DNA of 64,000 nucleotides from Emcibacter sp. (GTDB taxonomy: Bacteria > Pseudomonadota > Alphaproteobacteria > Sphingomonadales > Emcibacteraceae): assembly GCA_021774785.1 (NCBI GenBank), contig JAJFIQ010000028.1:1-64000 (forward strand), read 5' to 3'. The notes beneath the pieces are model-generated. The model saw only the letters and a list, made by a program, of their open reading frames with translations, was not told the DNA's origin and did not search any database. Position 1 is the stretch's first letter. Each line of letters starts with the position of its first letter. The translations under genes were made by a program, and so were the position numbers. This document shows, one piece after another, positions 1 to 10,011 of the stretch.

Positions 1-237
1 AATGTCACGCTCCTCTGTGACGCGCGCTAACTCTGCCTTCAGACGACGTACTTCAGAAGCTTGAACAGCTTCTTTGGCGCGCTCCGGCTCTGGCTTGTGA
101 TATTGCTTCTTCCAGTCATATAACGACTTGCTGCTGATGCCCAGTCGCCGAGAAACTTCAAGGACTGAATAGCCCCGTTCTGTGACCTGAGCGACCGCAT
201 CGCGTCTGAATTCTTCCGTGTAACGTAGTCCTGACAT
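1..237 (-). CDS. IS3-family transposase OrfA (partial)
   Basis: This reading frame is open to the window edge and starts at the ATG at 235-237 with a GGAG-like site upstream (AAGGAGATTTAG before the ATG). The protein opens MSGLRYTEEFRRDAVAQV and has the classic OrfA helix-turn-helix (a GYSV..VSRRLGISSKSLYDWKK pattern), followed by the start of the leucine-zipper coiled coil (VRRLKAELARVTEERD). OrfA binds the IS ends and, through programmed frameshifting, forms the N-terminus of the OrfAB transposase. About 79 codons are visible, near the end of a usual 90-100 residue OrfA. Family assignment is confident; the IS name is not. Confidence 0.85.
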   Translation of the reverse strand, partial: MSGLRYTEEFRRDAVAQVTERGYSVLEVSRRLGISSKSLYDWKKQYHKPEPERAKEAVQASEVRRLKAELARVTEERDI

Positions 238-299
238 AATCTAAATCTCCTTGCTTCATTTTTACACTGCAAGGTGTCTACAAATCTAGGGGCATCTCA
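1..299 (-). mobile_element. IS3-family insertion sequence, orfA end, cut by window edge
   Basis: The block holds the start of an IS3-type orfA reading leftwards and, outside it, a terminal sequence at about 274-299. Read on the minus strand this terminus begins TGAGATGCCCCTAGATTTG, which resembles the TG...GCCCC...TTGT(A/G)GACA ends of several IS3 elements. The rest of the element, orfB and the other inverted repeat lie left of the window. The exact outer boundary (taken as 299) is inferred from the TG start of the repeat, and no target duplication can be tested. Confidence 0.75.
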
Positions 300-385
300 G
301 ATATTTATTTCCCCCCCCAGAGCCTGCTTTGGGTGGAAGCGGACGCTCACATTAAAAGAGATTCCGGTCTCCCATGAACAAGGGG

Positions 386-421: not shown

Positions 422-664
422 TTATTTCTTCAGTCTAACTCCTACCCCACCAACCGCAGTTTCACCTTCAGCAAGAAAAATAACGTCTGCAGCTTCAAAC
501 ACATTTTTGATCGCAGCAAGATTTTCTGCGAGGGGAATACGCGAACCTTTTTCAAAATCGGAAATGGTCTTCCTAGTAATTTGAGTCGGTGTAGCAAGAT
601 CACCTTGTGACCAGTTGAGCAAGGAACGTGCTGCACGACATTGAGCTGGTGTAATATCTGTCAT
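422..664 (-). CDS. Small XRE-family DNA-binding regulator
   Basis: This is an 80-residue single-domain Cro/CI-type helix-turn-helix protein. The HTH spans about residues 8-60: the QCRAARSLLNWSQGDLA part supplies helices 1-2, TRKTISDFEKGSR is the recognition region, and a short tail (about 61-80) follows. Such stand-alone XRE proteins are common in alphaproteobacteria and on mobile islands, where they often act as autorepressors. A palindrome lies 46 bp upstream of its start (710-726), consistent with self-regulation. It is divergent from the micro-ORF and MNT/HEPN-like gene on the other side, so it could control both. The target is inferred, not shown. Confidence 0.8.
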   Translation of the reverse strand: MTDITPAQCRAARSLLNWSQGDLATPTQITRKTISDFEKGSRIPLAENLAAIKNVFEAADVIFLAEGETAVGGVGVRLKK

Positions 665-709
665 AAAATCAATTTATACTTTCGCTCTTGATCTCTCAGT
701 TAAATCATG

Positions 710-726
710 TTACCCATAATGGGTAA
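710..726. promoter_or_regulatory. Palindromic operator candidate between XRE and MNT/HEPN genes
   Basis: TTACCCAT-A-ATGGGTAA has 8-bp perfect arms around one central base. It lies in the divergent intergenic space between the XRE gene (start 664) and the ORF beginning at 799. Size and position suit a dimeric XRE repressor controlling both directions. No footprint data can be inferred. Confidence 0.5.
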
Positions 727-798
727 TTATAGTGACCCAGCAAAGTGGTATGAACACTTTGCCGAGTCTAACCACACCAACCTAACCAGGAGGCTGAC

Positions 799-918
799 AT
801 GGCTACCCCACGTCTTAGCACAGATAACCTGTGCTTGTTAACTAACAACTTATCCACCCTCATAAATTTTATATTCCCGTCCTTTGGCAGAACAGTTTTT
901 AGGGGGAACACCTCATGA
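799..918 (+). CDS. 39-codon ORF, translationally coupled to the MNT/HEPN-like gene
   Basis: This short reading frame begins MATPRLSTDNLCLL and ends GRTVFRGNTS. It has an unusually strong Shine-Dalgarno sequence (CCAGGAGG at 786-793, five bases before the ATG). Its TGA stop overlaps the ATG of the next gene in an ATGA junction (915-918), the usual sign of translational coupling. No domain is recognised. It could be a leader peptide, a small partner such as an antitoxin for the downstream protein, or a coupling device only. The frame differs from the downstream gene, so it is not simply an alternative start. Confidence 0.5.
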   Translation: MATPRLSTDNLCLLTNNLSTLINFIFPSFGRTVFRGNTS

Positions 919-2210
919 GGTTTACATTCACTCACCTGCCAGCACAGGTCCAAAGTGACCTGACGCATATCGCCAAGTTTCTGGTCGAAGAAACCAAGGT
1001 AACCGATAAATCCCCCTATGACCGTTATACCCCCAGTCGTATCCGCCATATCATGCTGCACGGTTGCTTTACTGAGGATCATTGGACAGCAGAAACTGTT
1101 CTGCGTCCCGATGAAGTGTCTTATCGCTATAACATCATGGTGATCGTCTCGGCACATCTCTGCGATATTCTTCCTATTCTGGAAAGGGCCATAGCGCAGT
1201 TGAACCAGTCCGGCGAGCTGAGCTTTCCTGTGGTGGCAGAGATCATAGATACCAAAGGCCGGATCGACAAGAAACTCCGAAACGGCTATCTGGCTTATGA
1301 CCAGATTCAAACGCGGGGTGTTCTGATCTATAGCAGGGGGGACATCACCCGTGATCTGTTTACCCCTCTGGATCAGCCCGATGCGGAAAAACATTATCTT
1401 CAGGCGAAAGATTATTTTGATCAGTCCTATCCCCTCGCCCAGCTGTTTCTATCAGGTGCACGATCCTTTAAAGGCAAAGACCATTGTGCAACTGCCTTTA
1501 TGCTTACGCTTTCGGCGGAGCAGACTTACACAACCTTCATGGTGGTCCATATCCTGAAATACCCCTCTGGTCGTCCCTTGTGGGAGCTGCGTGAACTGGC
1601 GGAGAGTATTCATCCAGAGCTTTCTATGGTCTGGAGCGGATTACGGGAGGAACAGAATTTTTATCTATTGGCAAGGGCTTTCCGCGATGTGCGTTTCAGT
1701 GCAAATTACAGCATTACCGATAGTGACCTAAACCTCATGTTTGGTTATGTGGAGGATTTACATAAACTGGTTCGTCACATCTGCCAGATAAAGTTTGACG
1801 CCTTAAAAGCAGGAAGTCTCGCCAAGCCTAATAAAGACTGGCTGGAGATTGTCGCACAGGCTTTAAGGCCCGATGCTGACGATGAGCCTGAGGTTCCGCA
1901 AACCACAATTCCCTTTCCGTCTCCAAATTCCCGGACTGCAGAACAGGAAGAGGCTTTGGAGAAATTATCTACCGCTATATCAGGTATTGAGGGGCCTTGC
2001 TCGGAACTGCATACCATTGCCGATATTCTGAGATCCCTGTCCGAACTTAACTCCAACATGGCATGCAGTTGCGAATTTTACCTCATGGCGCAATTTCTTC
2101 AGGAACGCATAAAGGTGATCGAAGGGCTCTATGGACAGATGATCCATATCTTCGAGGAACTCCAGCCACGTGACGATATGCCCGCCAAGAGAGACGCCGT
2201 CACTAGCTAG
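915..2210 (+). CDS. MNT/HEPN-like protein with degenerate active sites
   Basis: This 431-residue protein has three parts. Residues about 40-145 follow the layout of a minimal nucleotidyltransferase (MNT): a helix and strand IMLHGC, then a YRYNIMVIVS strand, then the xxDTKGRIDKKLRNGYLAY region seen in fused NTase-HEPN proteins. Residues about 155-295 match a HEPN domain, ending with a RDVRFSANYSIT segment that in active relatives is of the type R-Y-S-K-H-Y. The C-terminal 130 residues are low-similarity and acidic. The NTase GS motif is GC (50-51), the paired catalytic Asp residues are missing (YNIMVIV), and the HEPN catalytic His position carries Asn264. Both activities may therefore be lost or altered. 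Its location on a tRNA island, beside an XRE gene and behind a coupled micro-ORF, suggests a defence or addiction role by analogy only. Confidence 0.65.
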   Translation: MRFTFTHLPAQVQSDLTHIAKFLVEETKVTDKSPYDRYTPSRIRHIMLHGCFTEDHWTAETVLRPDEVSYRYNIMVIVSAHLCDILPILERAIAQLNQSGELSFPVVAEIIDTKGRIDKKLRNGYLAYDQIQTRGVLIYSRGDITRDLFTPLDQPDAEKHYLQAKDYFDQSYPLAQLFLSGARSFKGKDHCATAFMLTLSAEQTYTTFMVVHILKYPSGRPLWELRELAESIHPELSMVWSGLREEQNFYLLARAFRDVRFSANYSITDSDLNLMFGYVEDLHKLVRHICQIKFDALKAGSLAKPNKDWLEIVAQALRPDADDEPEVPQTTIPFPSPNSRTAEQEEALEKLSTAISGIEGPCSELHTIADILRSLSELNSNMACSCEFYLMAQFLQERIKVIEGLYGQMIHIFEELQPRDDMPAKRDAVTS

Positions 2211-2741: not shown

Positions 2742-3059
2742 ATGTCAAAAATGCATAAATTAACGGAAAAAATCAGACGCGCTGCTCAAAACTCTACTGG
2801 CACCCATTTAACAAAAAAAGATGTTCAAACTCTGGTTCTTCAAGGAATTCTTCACAGCCTGCAAGACCTTGATGCTAATGAAATACAAGGAGTCATCAAG
2901 TGTCTCAGAGAGAAAAAAGAAAATATCAAGTTGATAGATTCTGGCTTGATCAAGAAGAATACAGCACAAAATGGTACATCTACTGGTATGACGAACGAAA
3001 AAGAAAAACGCGCCGCAAGACGACACATAAGACAGACTATGAATGTGCCAAGGAAGTAA
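2742..3059 (+). CDS. Hypothetical protein overlapping the integrase start
   Basis: The start lies three bases after the preceding stop. The first 60 residues look protein-like and helical (KLTEKIRRAAQNSTGTHLTK, then a leucine-rich VLQGILHSLQDLD). The last 50 residues, however, overlap the integrase 5' end in another frame for about 160 bases and look like a shadow of it. It may be a real small gene that runs through the overlap, or a frame whose coding part ends earlier. No family is recognised. Confidence 0.4.
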   Translation: MSKMHKLTEKIRRAAQNSTGTHLTKKDVQTLVLQGILHSLQDLDANEIQGVIKCLREKKENIKLIDSGLIKKNTAQNGTSTGMTNEKEKRAARRHIRQTMNVPRK

Positions 3060-4135
3060 TTGACGAACATTATTACGCATCACGAAGTCAAACAAAAGCC
3101 CAATCAAATGAGGCAGACATTCGGAAAATTCTTTCGAACTATTGGCTGGAGCATGGTCGTAGTTTAGTTGCTGCCCCTGTCATCAACACAACAATTATTT
3201 CATTTACAAAATTTATTGACCTTGAAGAAGATGCTGGCCGAATTTCCGGATTAACCATGCTGTCTGATATCACCCCTCGATTTATTAAAAGATTTATAAC
3301 ATGGCGGCTTTCGCATTCTATCAATGTAATAAAAGACGATGCCGGAGATATCTCTAAAATTCAGGTCTTGAAAAGAGAGGTATCCCCCAATTCCGTACAG
3401 ACCTATATTAAATATATTCGTGCGGCGATTAATTGGGCTTACAAAAATGGCGATATTTTATTTTCCCCTCATATACCCGGCATTTCAAAATATGAATTGA
3501 ATGGCCCAAGAACCGCTTTTCTAACAATAAACATGATGGCGGATGCGTTAAACTATGCCCACCAAAAAAAGATGGACCACCTCTTTAAATTCCTGATTGG
3601 GTGCATCGGGACAATTGCCCGTCCAGAAACAGTGCTAGATATTCACGTAGGCCTTCAAATGGACTGGATACAAGACTTCCTTGACCTTAATCCCCCAGGT
3701 CGGCGTTTAACCTCAAAAAGGCGGCCTATTGTGGCTGTTCCCGATTTGTTAAAAGAGTGGCTTTCGGAAGAATCCGGTTACTTTGTCCAGCGTCAAGGCA
3801 AACAAATCAAAAGTATTAAAAAAGCATGGCGGACTATGAGAGAAGAACTTCTATGGCCAAAGAATATAGTTTCAAAAACAATCCGCCATAGCATGGCCAG
3901 AACTCTACGCACAAATTCCGAATTCAAAAAGAAATATAACATCTTCATTGACCCTTGGGAGCTGTCTGGACATATGGGTCACCAAGCCTCTGGAAGCCTC
4001 GAAATTACCGAAGGATACGCCCAATACATCCCAAACGGAGAAAGCACTGTAATTCAAGGGCTTAACGCTTATTTTCTTGAATTGGAAGAAAATGTCGATT
4101 TTGATTTGCACCCAAGTTGCACCCAAGAAACGTAA
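2900..4135 (+). CDS. Tyrosine recombinase (site-specific integrase)
   Basis: This 411-residue phage/island-type integrase should catalyse recombination between an island att site and the 3' end of the neighbouring tRNA-Pro gene. The N-terminal 60 residues resemble an arm-binding domain (WYIYWYDERKRKTRRKTTHKT); residues 75-200 form the SAM-like core-binding region. In the catalytic domain Arg241 (GTIARPETVLDI), Arg329-His330 (KTIRHSMAR), His358 (SGHMGHQ) and nucleophile Tyr373 (EGYAQYIP) are visible. The first His of the HxLR box is Lys326, a tolerated variation. The start is GTG at 2900, preceded by AAGGAG. The gene ends 60 bases from the tRNA 3' end, the usual position for a tRNA-targeting integrase. 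Confidence 0.9.
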   Translation: MSQREKRKYQVDRFWLDQEEYSTKWYIYWYDERKRKTRRKTTHKTDYECAKEVIDEHYYASRSQTKAQSNEADIRKILSNYWLEHGRSLVAAPVINTTIISFTKFIDLEEDAGRISGLTMLSDITPRFIKRFITWRLSHSINVIKDDAGDISKIQVLKREVSPNSVQTYIKYIRAAINWAYKNGDILFSPHIPGISKYELNGPRTAFLTINMMADALNYAHQKKMDHLFKFLIGCIGTIARPETVLDIHVGLQMDWIQDFLDLNPPGRRLTSKRRPIVAVPDLLKEWLSEESGYFVQRQGKQIKSIKKAWRTMREELLWPKNIVSKTIRHSMARTLRTNSEFKKKYNIFIDPWELSGHMGHQASGSLEITEGYAQYIPNGESTVIQGLNAYFLELEENVDFDLHPSCTQET

Positions 4136-4195: not shown

Positions 4196-4272
<77 letters not shown>

Positions 4273-7476: not shown

Positions 7477-8202
7477 ATGACAAAGAATAAAAAAGCAGTG
7501 GTTTTATTAAGTGGCGGGTTGGATTCCACAACCTGTGTTGCCATTGCCCAAGAGGCCGGCTTTGATGTGGTGGGACTGAGCTTTGATTACGGTCAGCGGC
7601 ACACGCTGGAGCTTGAATCGGCTGCGCGCGTTGCCAAAAAAATGGGCCTTAAGAATCATGTGACCGCAAAAATTGACCTTCGGGTCTTTGGCGGCTCGGC
7701 ACTGACCGATGATATTGAGGTGCCAAAAGGTCGCAGCAGTGATGAAATTGCCAAAAAAATAGATGGTGACATTCCGGTGACATATGTTCCGGCACGAAAT
7801 ACTATCTTCCTGTCCTTTGCTTTGGCTTTCGCAGAAACCCAGGGGGCGAGTGATATTTTTATCGGGGTCAATGCCCTAGATTTCAGCGGCTATCCCGATT
7901 GCCGCCCGGAATATATCGCGGCCTATGAGGTTATGGCCAATCTGGCCACTAAAAGCGGTATAGAAGGGCAAGAGGGTATTAAAATCCACACGCCCCTCAT
8001 TGATATGACCAAGGCCGGCATTGTCCGTACAGGGTTAGGACTCGGCGTGGATTACGGCCTGACCACAAGCTGCTATGATCCGGCCCCTGACGGCACATCC
8101 TGCGGTGAGTGTGATGCCTGCCACCTGCGGCTGAAGGGCTTTCGGGAAGCGGGAGAGACAGACCCCGTGGCTTACTTACCGAAAAAAAATAATGACCTAT
8201 AG
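7477..8202 (+). CDS. queC: 7-cyano-7-deazaguanine synthase
   Basis: QueC (241 residues) converts 7-carboxy-7-deazaguanine to preQ0 using ammonia and ATP in queuosine biosynthesis. The PP-loop SGGLDSTT is at residues 12-19 and the GQRH motif near 43. A zinc-binding cluster near the C-terminus (SCYDP...[11 protein letters not shown], about residues 205-222) is intact. The next gene, queE, overlaps it by 11 bases, so the two consecutive pathway enzymes are co-translated. No preQ1 riboswitch-like element is evident in the short leader. queD and queF are not in the window. Confidence 0.97.
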
Positions 8203-9246: not shown

Positions 9247-10011
9247 TCATTGAAACTGGGCTATAAGTCCCTCCCCTAACAGCTTTATACCCACCAGAAA
9301 CAACAGCCCGTAACAGATGATATAAAACAGCTTGTTGGAGACGCGGTTATGCATCCCGATGCCAAGCCACACCCCAATCGGTGCAAAGGGCATCAGGTAG
9401 AGTGACATCCTCAGATTATCCGCCGACAATTGCCCAAGCCATGCATAGGGAATCAACTTAACGTAATTCATGATAATGAAAAACATCACCGAGGTTCCCA
9501 CCAGCACCGTCTTATCCAGCCGGAGCGGGAAAAGATATTGCGATACTGGTGGCCCACCGGCATGGGCGATGAAGCTGGTAAAACCGCTCGCCATTCCCAT
9601 GATGCCACCTTTCAGTCTGTTGTGACCATGAGGTTCCACATGACGGTTTCTGCGCTGGATAAACCAGTAGTTACCAACAAAATAAATTGCCATCATCCCC
9701 ACGATGATACGAATTATATCAGCATTCATCATGCTAAATGTCAGCCCGCCCACAACAATACCCACAAGGGCGCCAGGGATCAGAATTTTTAGAGTATGAC
9801 CATCCCAGTTCCTGCGGTACTGCCATGCGGTGAATATATCCATGACACAAAGGATCGGCAGCATAATCGCCGCCGCCATACGCGGGTCAACCATCAGGGT
9901 CAAAATGGGTACCGCCAAGGTGCCAAGCCCCCCCGCAAAGCCGCCCTTGGATATGCCCGTGAGCAGCACCACCGGAATAGCCAGAAAAAAGAACCATAAG
10001 GGGTCCACCAT
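9247..10011 (-). CDS. Sulfite exporter TauE/SafE family permease
   Basis: This 254-residue integral membrane protein has about eight hydrophobic segments and the TauE/SafE repeat hallmarks: the GISKGGFAGGLGTLAVPIL loop near residue 20 and the related GGIMGMASGFTSFIAHAGGPP loop near residue 135. The family transports organosulfonates, sulfite or related anions across the inner membrane; substrate cannot be predicted. It starts six bases after the yaaA stop on the same strand and so is probably co-transcribed with yaaA. A clear Shine-Dalgarno sequence is lacking. Confidence 0.9.
   Translation of the reverse strand: MVDPLWFFFLAIPVVLLTGISKGGFAGGLGTLAVPILTLMVDPRMAAAIMLPILCVMDIFTAWQYRRNWDGHTLKILIPGALVGIVVGGLTFSMMNADIIRIIVGMMAIYFVGNYWFIQRRNRHVEPHGHNRLKGGIMGMASGFTSFIAHAGGPPVSQYLFPLRLDKTVLVGTSVMFFIIMNYVKLIPYAWLGQLSADNLRMSLYLMPFAPIGVWLGIGMHNRVSNKLFYIICYGLLFLVGIKLLGEGLIAQFQ

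Follow-up and report, generated by a model that had tools for sequence, protein, structure and literature searches.

The window examined here, a stretch of 64,000 nucleotides from an Emcibacter sp. contig, carries near its start a group of genes ending at a tRNA gene. An 80-aa XRE-family repressor-like gene (422–664, minus strand; PF01381 HTH_3, 2.7e-7) is divergent from a structured leader RNA of the SymR/RepX type (729–806, plus strand), and a near-perfect palindrome read at 710–726, TTACCCATAATGGGTAA, is a candidate operator for this repressor. On the plus strand there follow a micro-ORF of 39 codons (799–918), whose stop overlaps the next start codon as ATGA at 915–918, a gene with an open frame for a protein of 431 aa (915–2210), a small ORF with ANDN motifs (2505–2738) and a tyrosine integrase (2900–4135; PF13102, 2e-8; phrog_1 integrase, 6.6e-14) that abuts tRNA-Pro(GGG) (4196–4272, minus strand). 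Small ANDN-type ORFs similar by eye occur in other copies of the locus; the frame of this one, read from 2235, gave no family match. The 46 bp at the tRNA 3′ end (4196–4241) recur exactly on a second contig of the same genome (C16) that carries no tRNA gene there, as expected of the distal end of an island. This repeat supports the tRNA island proposed in a preliminary description of the locus, which had also recognized the neighboring XRE gene and the coupled micro-ORF. tRNA-Pro(GGG) is found on the stretches of two further copies as well (L045 and L046). Contig C16 holds about 1.4 kb of island, and contig ends break the island interior; its one ORF, of 297 aa (G000:C16:410–1303, L168), looks secreted. 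A transposase-like ORF fragment (IS3 type by eye) occupies window positions 1–300, with a 94% copy of 1–207 on contig C20, and may be the reason why the contig breaks within the island.

Searched alone, the protein encoded at 915–2210 matched no family in Pfam, NCBIfam or PADLOC at E up to 1. A single-sequence phmmer search matched the solved HEPN protein 4nqf at residues 164–298 (E 1.4e-5), and a profile of the clade to which the window protein belongs matched 4nqf with an E of 2e-17. Clade and canonical profiles were aligned by hhalign over residues 1–300 (E 8.5e-46), and the two halves also aligned when taken separately (E 5.6e-23 and 1.5e-31). PF05168 HEPN was matched by 4 of the 12 clade members (best 1.6e-5), and a canonical relative from a genome of the same genus (L040) matched both PF05168 (4.7e-12) and PF18765 Polbeta (1.2e-6). 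Homology over both domains thus confirms, at the level of sequence comparison, the fused NTase-HEPN layout read earlier from the letters alone, with the NTase part at 915–1349 and the HEPN part at 1377–1814. An AlphaFold model from the sequences of the window, L032 and L033 had a mean pLDDT of 42.8, and the fold assignment leans on homology instead. A C-terminal module of roughly 100 aa (about 1932–2189) is present in 8 of 12 members; three (L036, L037 and L044) terminate upstream of it, and for L032 the contig ends too early. Another family under the same leader type (in G076) has a degenerate NTase (E 9.4e-8) and no recognizable HEPN part, and its C-terminal part may be related to the clade's module (E 1.1e-4, probability 56%). 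NTase-HEPN-like proteins also have a second, highly divergent branch (L003, at G000:C13:19552–19929, and L021, in G008); the NTase part of L021 likewise lacks GS.

The preliminary description further held that both catalytic sets had been lost, and the residues it named are read in the sequence as claimed: G50-C51, Y72-N73-I-M-V-I-V and R260...N264. In an alignment of 34 sequences, canonical relatives carry [FY]GS...SD[YF]D at the aligned columns, so the substitutions do not result from an alignment shift. They also extend across the clade: the 12 aligned members (alignment A5) have C, R, E or D at position 51 and neither Asp residue at the aligned places, with L48, G50, Y72 and R260 invariant. 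Of 19 canonical rows, 12 have H in the HEPN His column; the remaining 7 show K, N, A, S or E (L021, too divergent, is excluded from this count), and L009 has N there despite intact NTase motifs. Because the HEPN His is already variable among canonical relatives, the NTase loss alone marks the clade. Half of the double loss is in fact ordinary, as the excerpt of PMC3710099 available here states that MNT-fused HEPN domains typically lack the RNase residues. Thus, the claim stands for the NTase, with GS and DxD gone in 12/12 members, but the N-for-H change in HEPN is not special; judged from these alignments, the NTase loss is the unusual part of the protein, which probably no longer catalyses nucleotide transfer. 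The comparison with type VII HEPN/MNT systems reads similarly: where GSX10DXD is expected the window has GC and YRYN, where RX4HXY is expected it has RFSANY, and one fused ORF stands in place of two adjacent genes.

A second copy in the same genome is 62% identical to the window protein, and a close relative at 64% identity (L032) lies on a contig titled as a gammaproteobacterial MAG. Some homologue was found in 19 of 99 relatives (own genome included), the strong matches coming from three further genomes in the genus plus one in the family, and a search with the second copy matched 7 of 396 genomes of the order (E ≤1e-25). By tblastn (E ≤1e-5), 121 of 72,556 plasmid records were matched, all at less than 60% identity and none reaching 80% query coverage; these were mostly from rhizobia and sphingomonads, and several carry the annotation “nucleotidyltransferase and HEPN domain-containing protein”. 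No relative of the protein turned up when viral contigs were scanned. Frames are open in the 12 aligned members, and remnants occur in one genome (L038 and L039 in G011). In all 15 pairs of six copies pN was smaller than pS, with dS saturated in one pair. The gene is thus under purifying selection and, with the clade-wide NTase substitutions, its product resembles a functional protein that has ceased to be an enzyme more than it resembles debris; a pseudogene is unlikely given the pN/pS values and intact frames.

A feature passed over in the preliminary description is the recombinase gene, serine or tyrosine, that follows in 7 of the 11 copies that are open and have 3 kb or more of sequence beyond the gene (the window, L034, L035, L045 and L046 by phmmer; L047 and L048 by eye). 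None was found in the other four (L036, L037, L041 and L044), which counts against the double lock favored below.

The main feature overlooked there is that the micro-ORF is part of an RNA leader, composed of a hairpin, ACCACACCAACC, AGGAGGCTGAC, ATGGCTA and a short ORF, and covering a ribosome-binding site and start codon, here those of the coupled micro-ORF. Hairpin P1 (734–768, arms 734–747 and 755–768) precedes a helix, CC-AA-CCT / AGG-A-GG (777–793), that hides the micro-ORF Shine-Dalgarno sequence. Among 15 leaders, 8 of the 14 P1 pairs have changed on both sides; covariation (24 cells) scored 0.229 compared with a shuffled mean of 0.100, was reached in 0/500 shuffles and fell to at most 0.071 in slid versions. 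Against this, of the five measures of covariation, the one for further pair types was not above the shuffles (11 versus 11.1, 340/500). The Shine-Dalgarno helix is kept in all 15 leaders, with 100% of scored cells paired, yet four of its five pairs are invariant and none has changed on both sides. RNAalifold suggested the hairpin together with other 3′ helices, and the structure of hairpin plus Shine-Dalgarno helix was fixed by hand as our own choice. The leader DNA is better conserved than the gene (70–89% identity to the window in 12 copies, versus 55–69% for the gene DNA in the four compared). ATGA coupling was found in 12/12 clade copies tested, including the L038 remnant and with the L044 start at 9286, and micro-ORF length ranges from 30 to 60 codons across copies. 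In L035–L037 and L115–L122, palindromic repeat-like stretches appear by eye to have been inserted in the micro-ORF or protein start with the frame kept. Two members of the family in G016 (L047 and L048) gave no leader match, which likewise counts against the double lock.

To relate the leader to known RNAs, Rfam models and a covariance model of our own, R1, were used. R1 was built from only 15 leaders, the window's among them, so that its score of 85.7 bits at 729–806 is that of a model member. RF00043 (R1162-like antisense RNA) matched the window at 733–806 with 29.3 bits (E 0.0034; gathering 55). In a search of 20 loci at E up to 0.5, the RF00043 model matched 10 leaders (E up to 0.17), the symR model 3 and the FinP model 2, the latter two on the antisense strand. 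All of these scores lie below gathering, the best being 43.9 versus 55 for RF00043 and 43.3 versus 61 for RF01809; accordingly, no named Rfam motif reached its gathering score at the leader in window 600–1000, in L035 7950–8350 or in the 20 loci, and tRNA and int-alpA matches in the searched loci lay away from it. Conversely, R1 matched three IncQ rep stretches once apiece, each match stopping eight bases inside repA (37.4, 36.0 and 30.4 bits; E 5.1e-11, 1.4e-10 and 1e-8). In 12 kb of E. coli K-12, its single match (7825–7914; 35.0 bits, E 4.4e-10) covers symR (7836–7912), although it overruns the symR 5′ end by 11 bases, and its last model positions pass the symE start yet leave the symE ATG unaligned to the model ATG. 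That the leader is related to the RepX and SymR regions is well supported. RepX is described, in the part of PMC8136791 available here, as a FinP-like antisense RNA of 75 nt that spans the repA-repC ribosome-binding site and start codon and has two stem-loops; mutations raise copy number. Contrary to that paper, the review PMC12361487, in its available portion, lists IncQ without an antisense system, and the available portion of PMC6925257 contains nothing on one.

The leader is more widespread than the protein. R1 (E ≤1e-3) matched 43 of 396 genomes of the order, compared with 7 of 396 for the NTase-HEPN protein, and 31/385 and 52/299 genomes in the class and phylum samples; the three samples overlap, so these counts are not additive. 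About one chance match per 1000 genomes is expected from the listed E-values, whose calibration is rough. Some genomes hold many copies (12 in G044 and 9 in G076). An earlier search with a short pattern and two mismatches was unspecific (12 of 60 genomes, against 4 for the reversed control), and the covariance model was therefore relied on. Viral contigs were searched with two DNA patterns that span only CCT[GA]ACCAC to ATGGCT, giving 56 and 39 stretches. In 89 of the 95 loci the R1 match coincided with the pattern; in one it lay only elsewhere, and five gave none. Folded independently of the model, the 36 upstream bases together with the first two pattern bases had a mean of −19.7 kcal/mol versus −11.55 for shuffled sequences, and z was below −1 in 82/86 (this set excludes one place close to a contig end and 8 whose upstream sequence was a repeat).

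The genes behind the leader are diverse. First ORFs behind viral leaders include those for GIY-YIG, NUMOD4-HNH, LAGLIDADG and HNH endonucleases, the phage regulators Bro-N and Rha, which we take to be antirepressors, and an integrase; these come from 20 ORFs picked by hand rather than at random, with Pfam matches for 9/10 and 3/10. Among 22 phylum-level loci, all four SymE-like genes (two by Pfam PF08845, 4.7e-15 and 4e-19; two by phmmer) belong to other classes. In eight of the 22 (L277, L278, L283, L284, L286, L288, L290 and L292), also from other classes, the leader precedes a family with a shared start, read by eye as RuvC-like resolvases. Four leaders (L113, L127, L133 and L138) precede small proteins whose starts look signal-like (RRxLL). 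Of 59 leaders, 42 have a divergent XRE gene upstream, including 38 of the 41 that score best and 4 of the 18 others, the 59 being 61 full-length leader-strand matches minus two duplicates (L096 and L098, of L151 and L147), with 14 opposite-strand matches left out. In three loci (L032, L037 and L043), GNAT acetyltransferase genes near the XRE gene resemble DUF1778-GNAT toxin-antitoxin pairs. For most of the other genes behind the leader, no recombinase was matched within the stretch examined.

An antisense RNA opposite the leader is expected to have its promoter just inside the following coding sequence. By analogy with RepX and SymR, we place a predicted antisense RNA of about 75 nt at 732–806 on the minus strand. 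A TGnTA, an extended −10-like element, lies at 816–820 on that strand (TANCA on the plus strand, +18 to +22 from the ATG) and would belong to its promoter. TANCA occurs at +18 in 31/86 viral leaders, and no more than 6 have it at any of 23 other offsets. Outside the Emcibacter-type group it stands there in 30/43 genomic leaders, with no more than 2 at any of 41 other offsets; the proteins behind these leaders differ, yet some rows are related. At the same site, two of three IncQ repA genes read TATCA, and L153 differs by neighboring bases only. The antisense strand of the Emcibacter-type group scored 8.46 for sigma70 compared with 5.35 when shuffled (0/200), its 14 rows being related sequences and the matrix being set by hand; with the same matrix the other 43 leaders were not above shuffles (3.65 versus 3.49, 60/200). 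The position-fixed TGnTA fits a −10 element for an RNA that starts like RepX, and the leader may act through an antisense transcript.

These observations suggest how the island operon might be held in check. We favor, at somewhat better than even confidence, a double lock in which an antisense RNA and the XRE protein restrain an operon of non-catalytic NTase-HEPN protein and integrase. The NTase-HEPN gene would be cargo of an integrative island, kept off in two ways. The divergently transcribed XRE repressor would shut the promoter, and a cis-encoded SymR/RepX-type antisense RNA of ~75 nt, starting within the first micro-ORF codons and running back across the ribosome-binding site and hairpin, would pair with the leader and block micro-ORF translation, a block that the overlapping ATGA would transmit to the NTase-HEPN gene. 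The lock would open where repressor and antisense RNA are missing, for example right after the island enters a new cell, and the opened lock would release one burst of NTase-HEPN protein, small ANDN protein and, if co-transcribed, integrase. The NTase-HEPN protein would most likely bind something (RNA, a nucleotide or a partner protein) during an establishment or integration step; a role in island establishment is our best guess from its neighbors. Points against this double lock include the unvarying Shine-Dalgarno helix, the pair-type measure at shuffle level, the sigma70 scores outside the Emcibacter-type group and the Rfam scores under gathering; the K-12 alignment detail and the lack of the C-terminal module in some copies lower our confidence slightly.

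The main rival to this role is a toxin of a new kind. The locus would then be a type I-like toxin-antitoxin system, the NTase-HEPN protein having a new activity that is neither NTase nor RNase and the SymR-like RNA being the antitoxin that keeps the island in the cell. The match of the leader to SymR/symE, its position before SymE-family genes in other classes and the recurrence of HEPN and NTase folds in toxins (stated in the available parts of PMC3710099 and PMC7641770) all fit such a system. We nevertheless regard it as rather unlikely, because most identified leader genes are of other kinds (homing endonucleases, phage regulators, integrase and RepA), the NTase site and HEPN His are gone, and the G076 family keeps a degenerate NTase and no recognizable HEPN part under the same leader. 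A classical HEPN/MNT toxin-antitoxin pair was rejected, its motifs being absent. A different possibility concerns the leader: it could act in cis only, with micro-ORF translation or a bound protein or ligand opening the hairpin and the Shine-Dalgarno helix and with no antisense RNA involved. Such a leader would account for the sequestering helix in all 15 leaders, the coupling in 12 copies and the lack of a sigma70 excess outside the Emcibacter-type group; it is at odds with the overlap of the leader with two known antisense RNAs and with a TGnTA fixed in position inside unrelated coding sequences, and we consider it unlikely.

The antitoxin-like decoy or defence component suggested in the preliminary description was not supported: no PADLOC match was obtained, and no active HEPN or MNT partner gene was seen beside the NTase-HEPN gene. 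A reading along the lines proposed there, that the protein once served in a HEPN/MNT toxin-antitoxin or in defence and now persists as an inactive decoy or sensor, draws on the fold homology, the clade-wide loss of the NTase site and the island location. The same PADLOC result, the integrase context and the lack of RNase residues said in the excerpt of PMC3710099 to be typical of MNT-fused HEPN domains make it improbable. Decay of a gene without function is very improbable; the G011 remnants are what it would predict, but pN is below pS in 15/15 pairs, the 12 aligned members are open and the coupling is kept.

With confidence evenly balanced, we propose that SymR, RepX and these leaders form one RNA superfamily, a portable antisense lock placed before genes that are dangerous if freely expressed. 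Its layout would comprise a hairpin, a hidden ribosome-binding site, an ATGGCT start and an antisense promoter 18–22 bases into the following gene. Phages, islands and plasmids of Proteobacteria would use it, and the genes locked would include homing endonucleases (three families), phage regulators, integrases, plasmid replication genes, SymE toxins and the degenerate NTase-HEPN gene. In Emcibacter-like bacteria the coupled micro-ORF would have freed the lock from the gene, so that the antisense promoter no longer constrains the protein. Two antisense RNAs known from unrelated contexts (copy control of plasmids and a toxin of E. coli) would then share a design with phage and island leaders that goes unreported by Rfam models at gathering scores in the tested loci. 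The design would also offer a sequence rule for finding genes silenced by mobile elements, and a hint to the function of uncharacterized genes behind the leader, the non-catalytic NTase-HEPN protein included. In our searches of CC-licensed papers, we saw no description of these leaders and, among the papers listed for the pair, none containing both SymR and RepX.

Comparison with known systems places both the protein and its leader. HepT/MntA, the type VII toxin-antitoxin system defined in the available part of PMC7641770 by its GSX10DXD and RX4HXY motifs, has the same two folds, in two genes there and in a single gene with neither motif here. The canonical alphaproteobacterial “nucleotidyltransferase and HEPN domain-containing protein” is homologous over residues 1–300 and keeps the HEPN Arg; the window clade, by contrast, has lost GS and DxD, and 8 of its 12 members carry the C-terminal module. 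In three plasmid neighborhoods of the canonical family, two lie beside other toxin-antitoxin genes and one is in a tra region beside a VbhA-type antitoxin. For the leader, FinP/traJ (RF00107) is the weakest link: the antisense strand of two leaders matches FinP, but in 2/20 loci only and below gathering. SymR/symE (RF01809) is closer, as the 77-nt RNA annotated opposite the symE start is covered by R1 and leaders are matched on their antisense strand by the symR model, although scores for window-type leaders are below gathering and symE is locked directly, with no coupled micro-ORF. FinO binds RepX in Salmonella, whereas the genome of the window gave no match to the FinO/ProQ family, which argues against a FinO/ProQ chaperone role here and counts against the double lock. 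The window score also lies below RF00043 gathering, and RepX governs repA-repC, while the leader described here precedes an island gene and then an integrase. Even so, RepX of IncQ R1162/RSF1010 (RF00043) shares the target hairpin, the ACCAC spacer, GGAG and the ATGGCTAC start, and is matched by R1 end to end; in two of the three IncQ stretches the repressor gene F is annotated directly upstream of the leader, where the XRE gene stands in the window.
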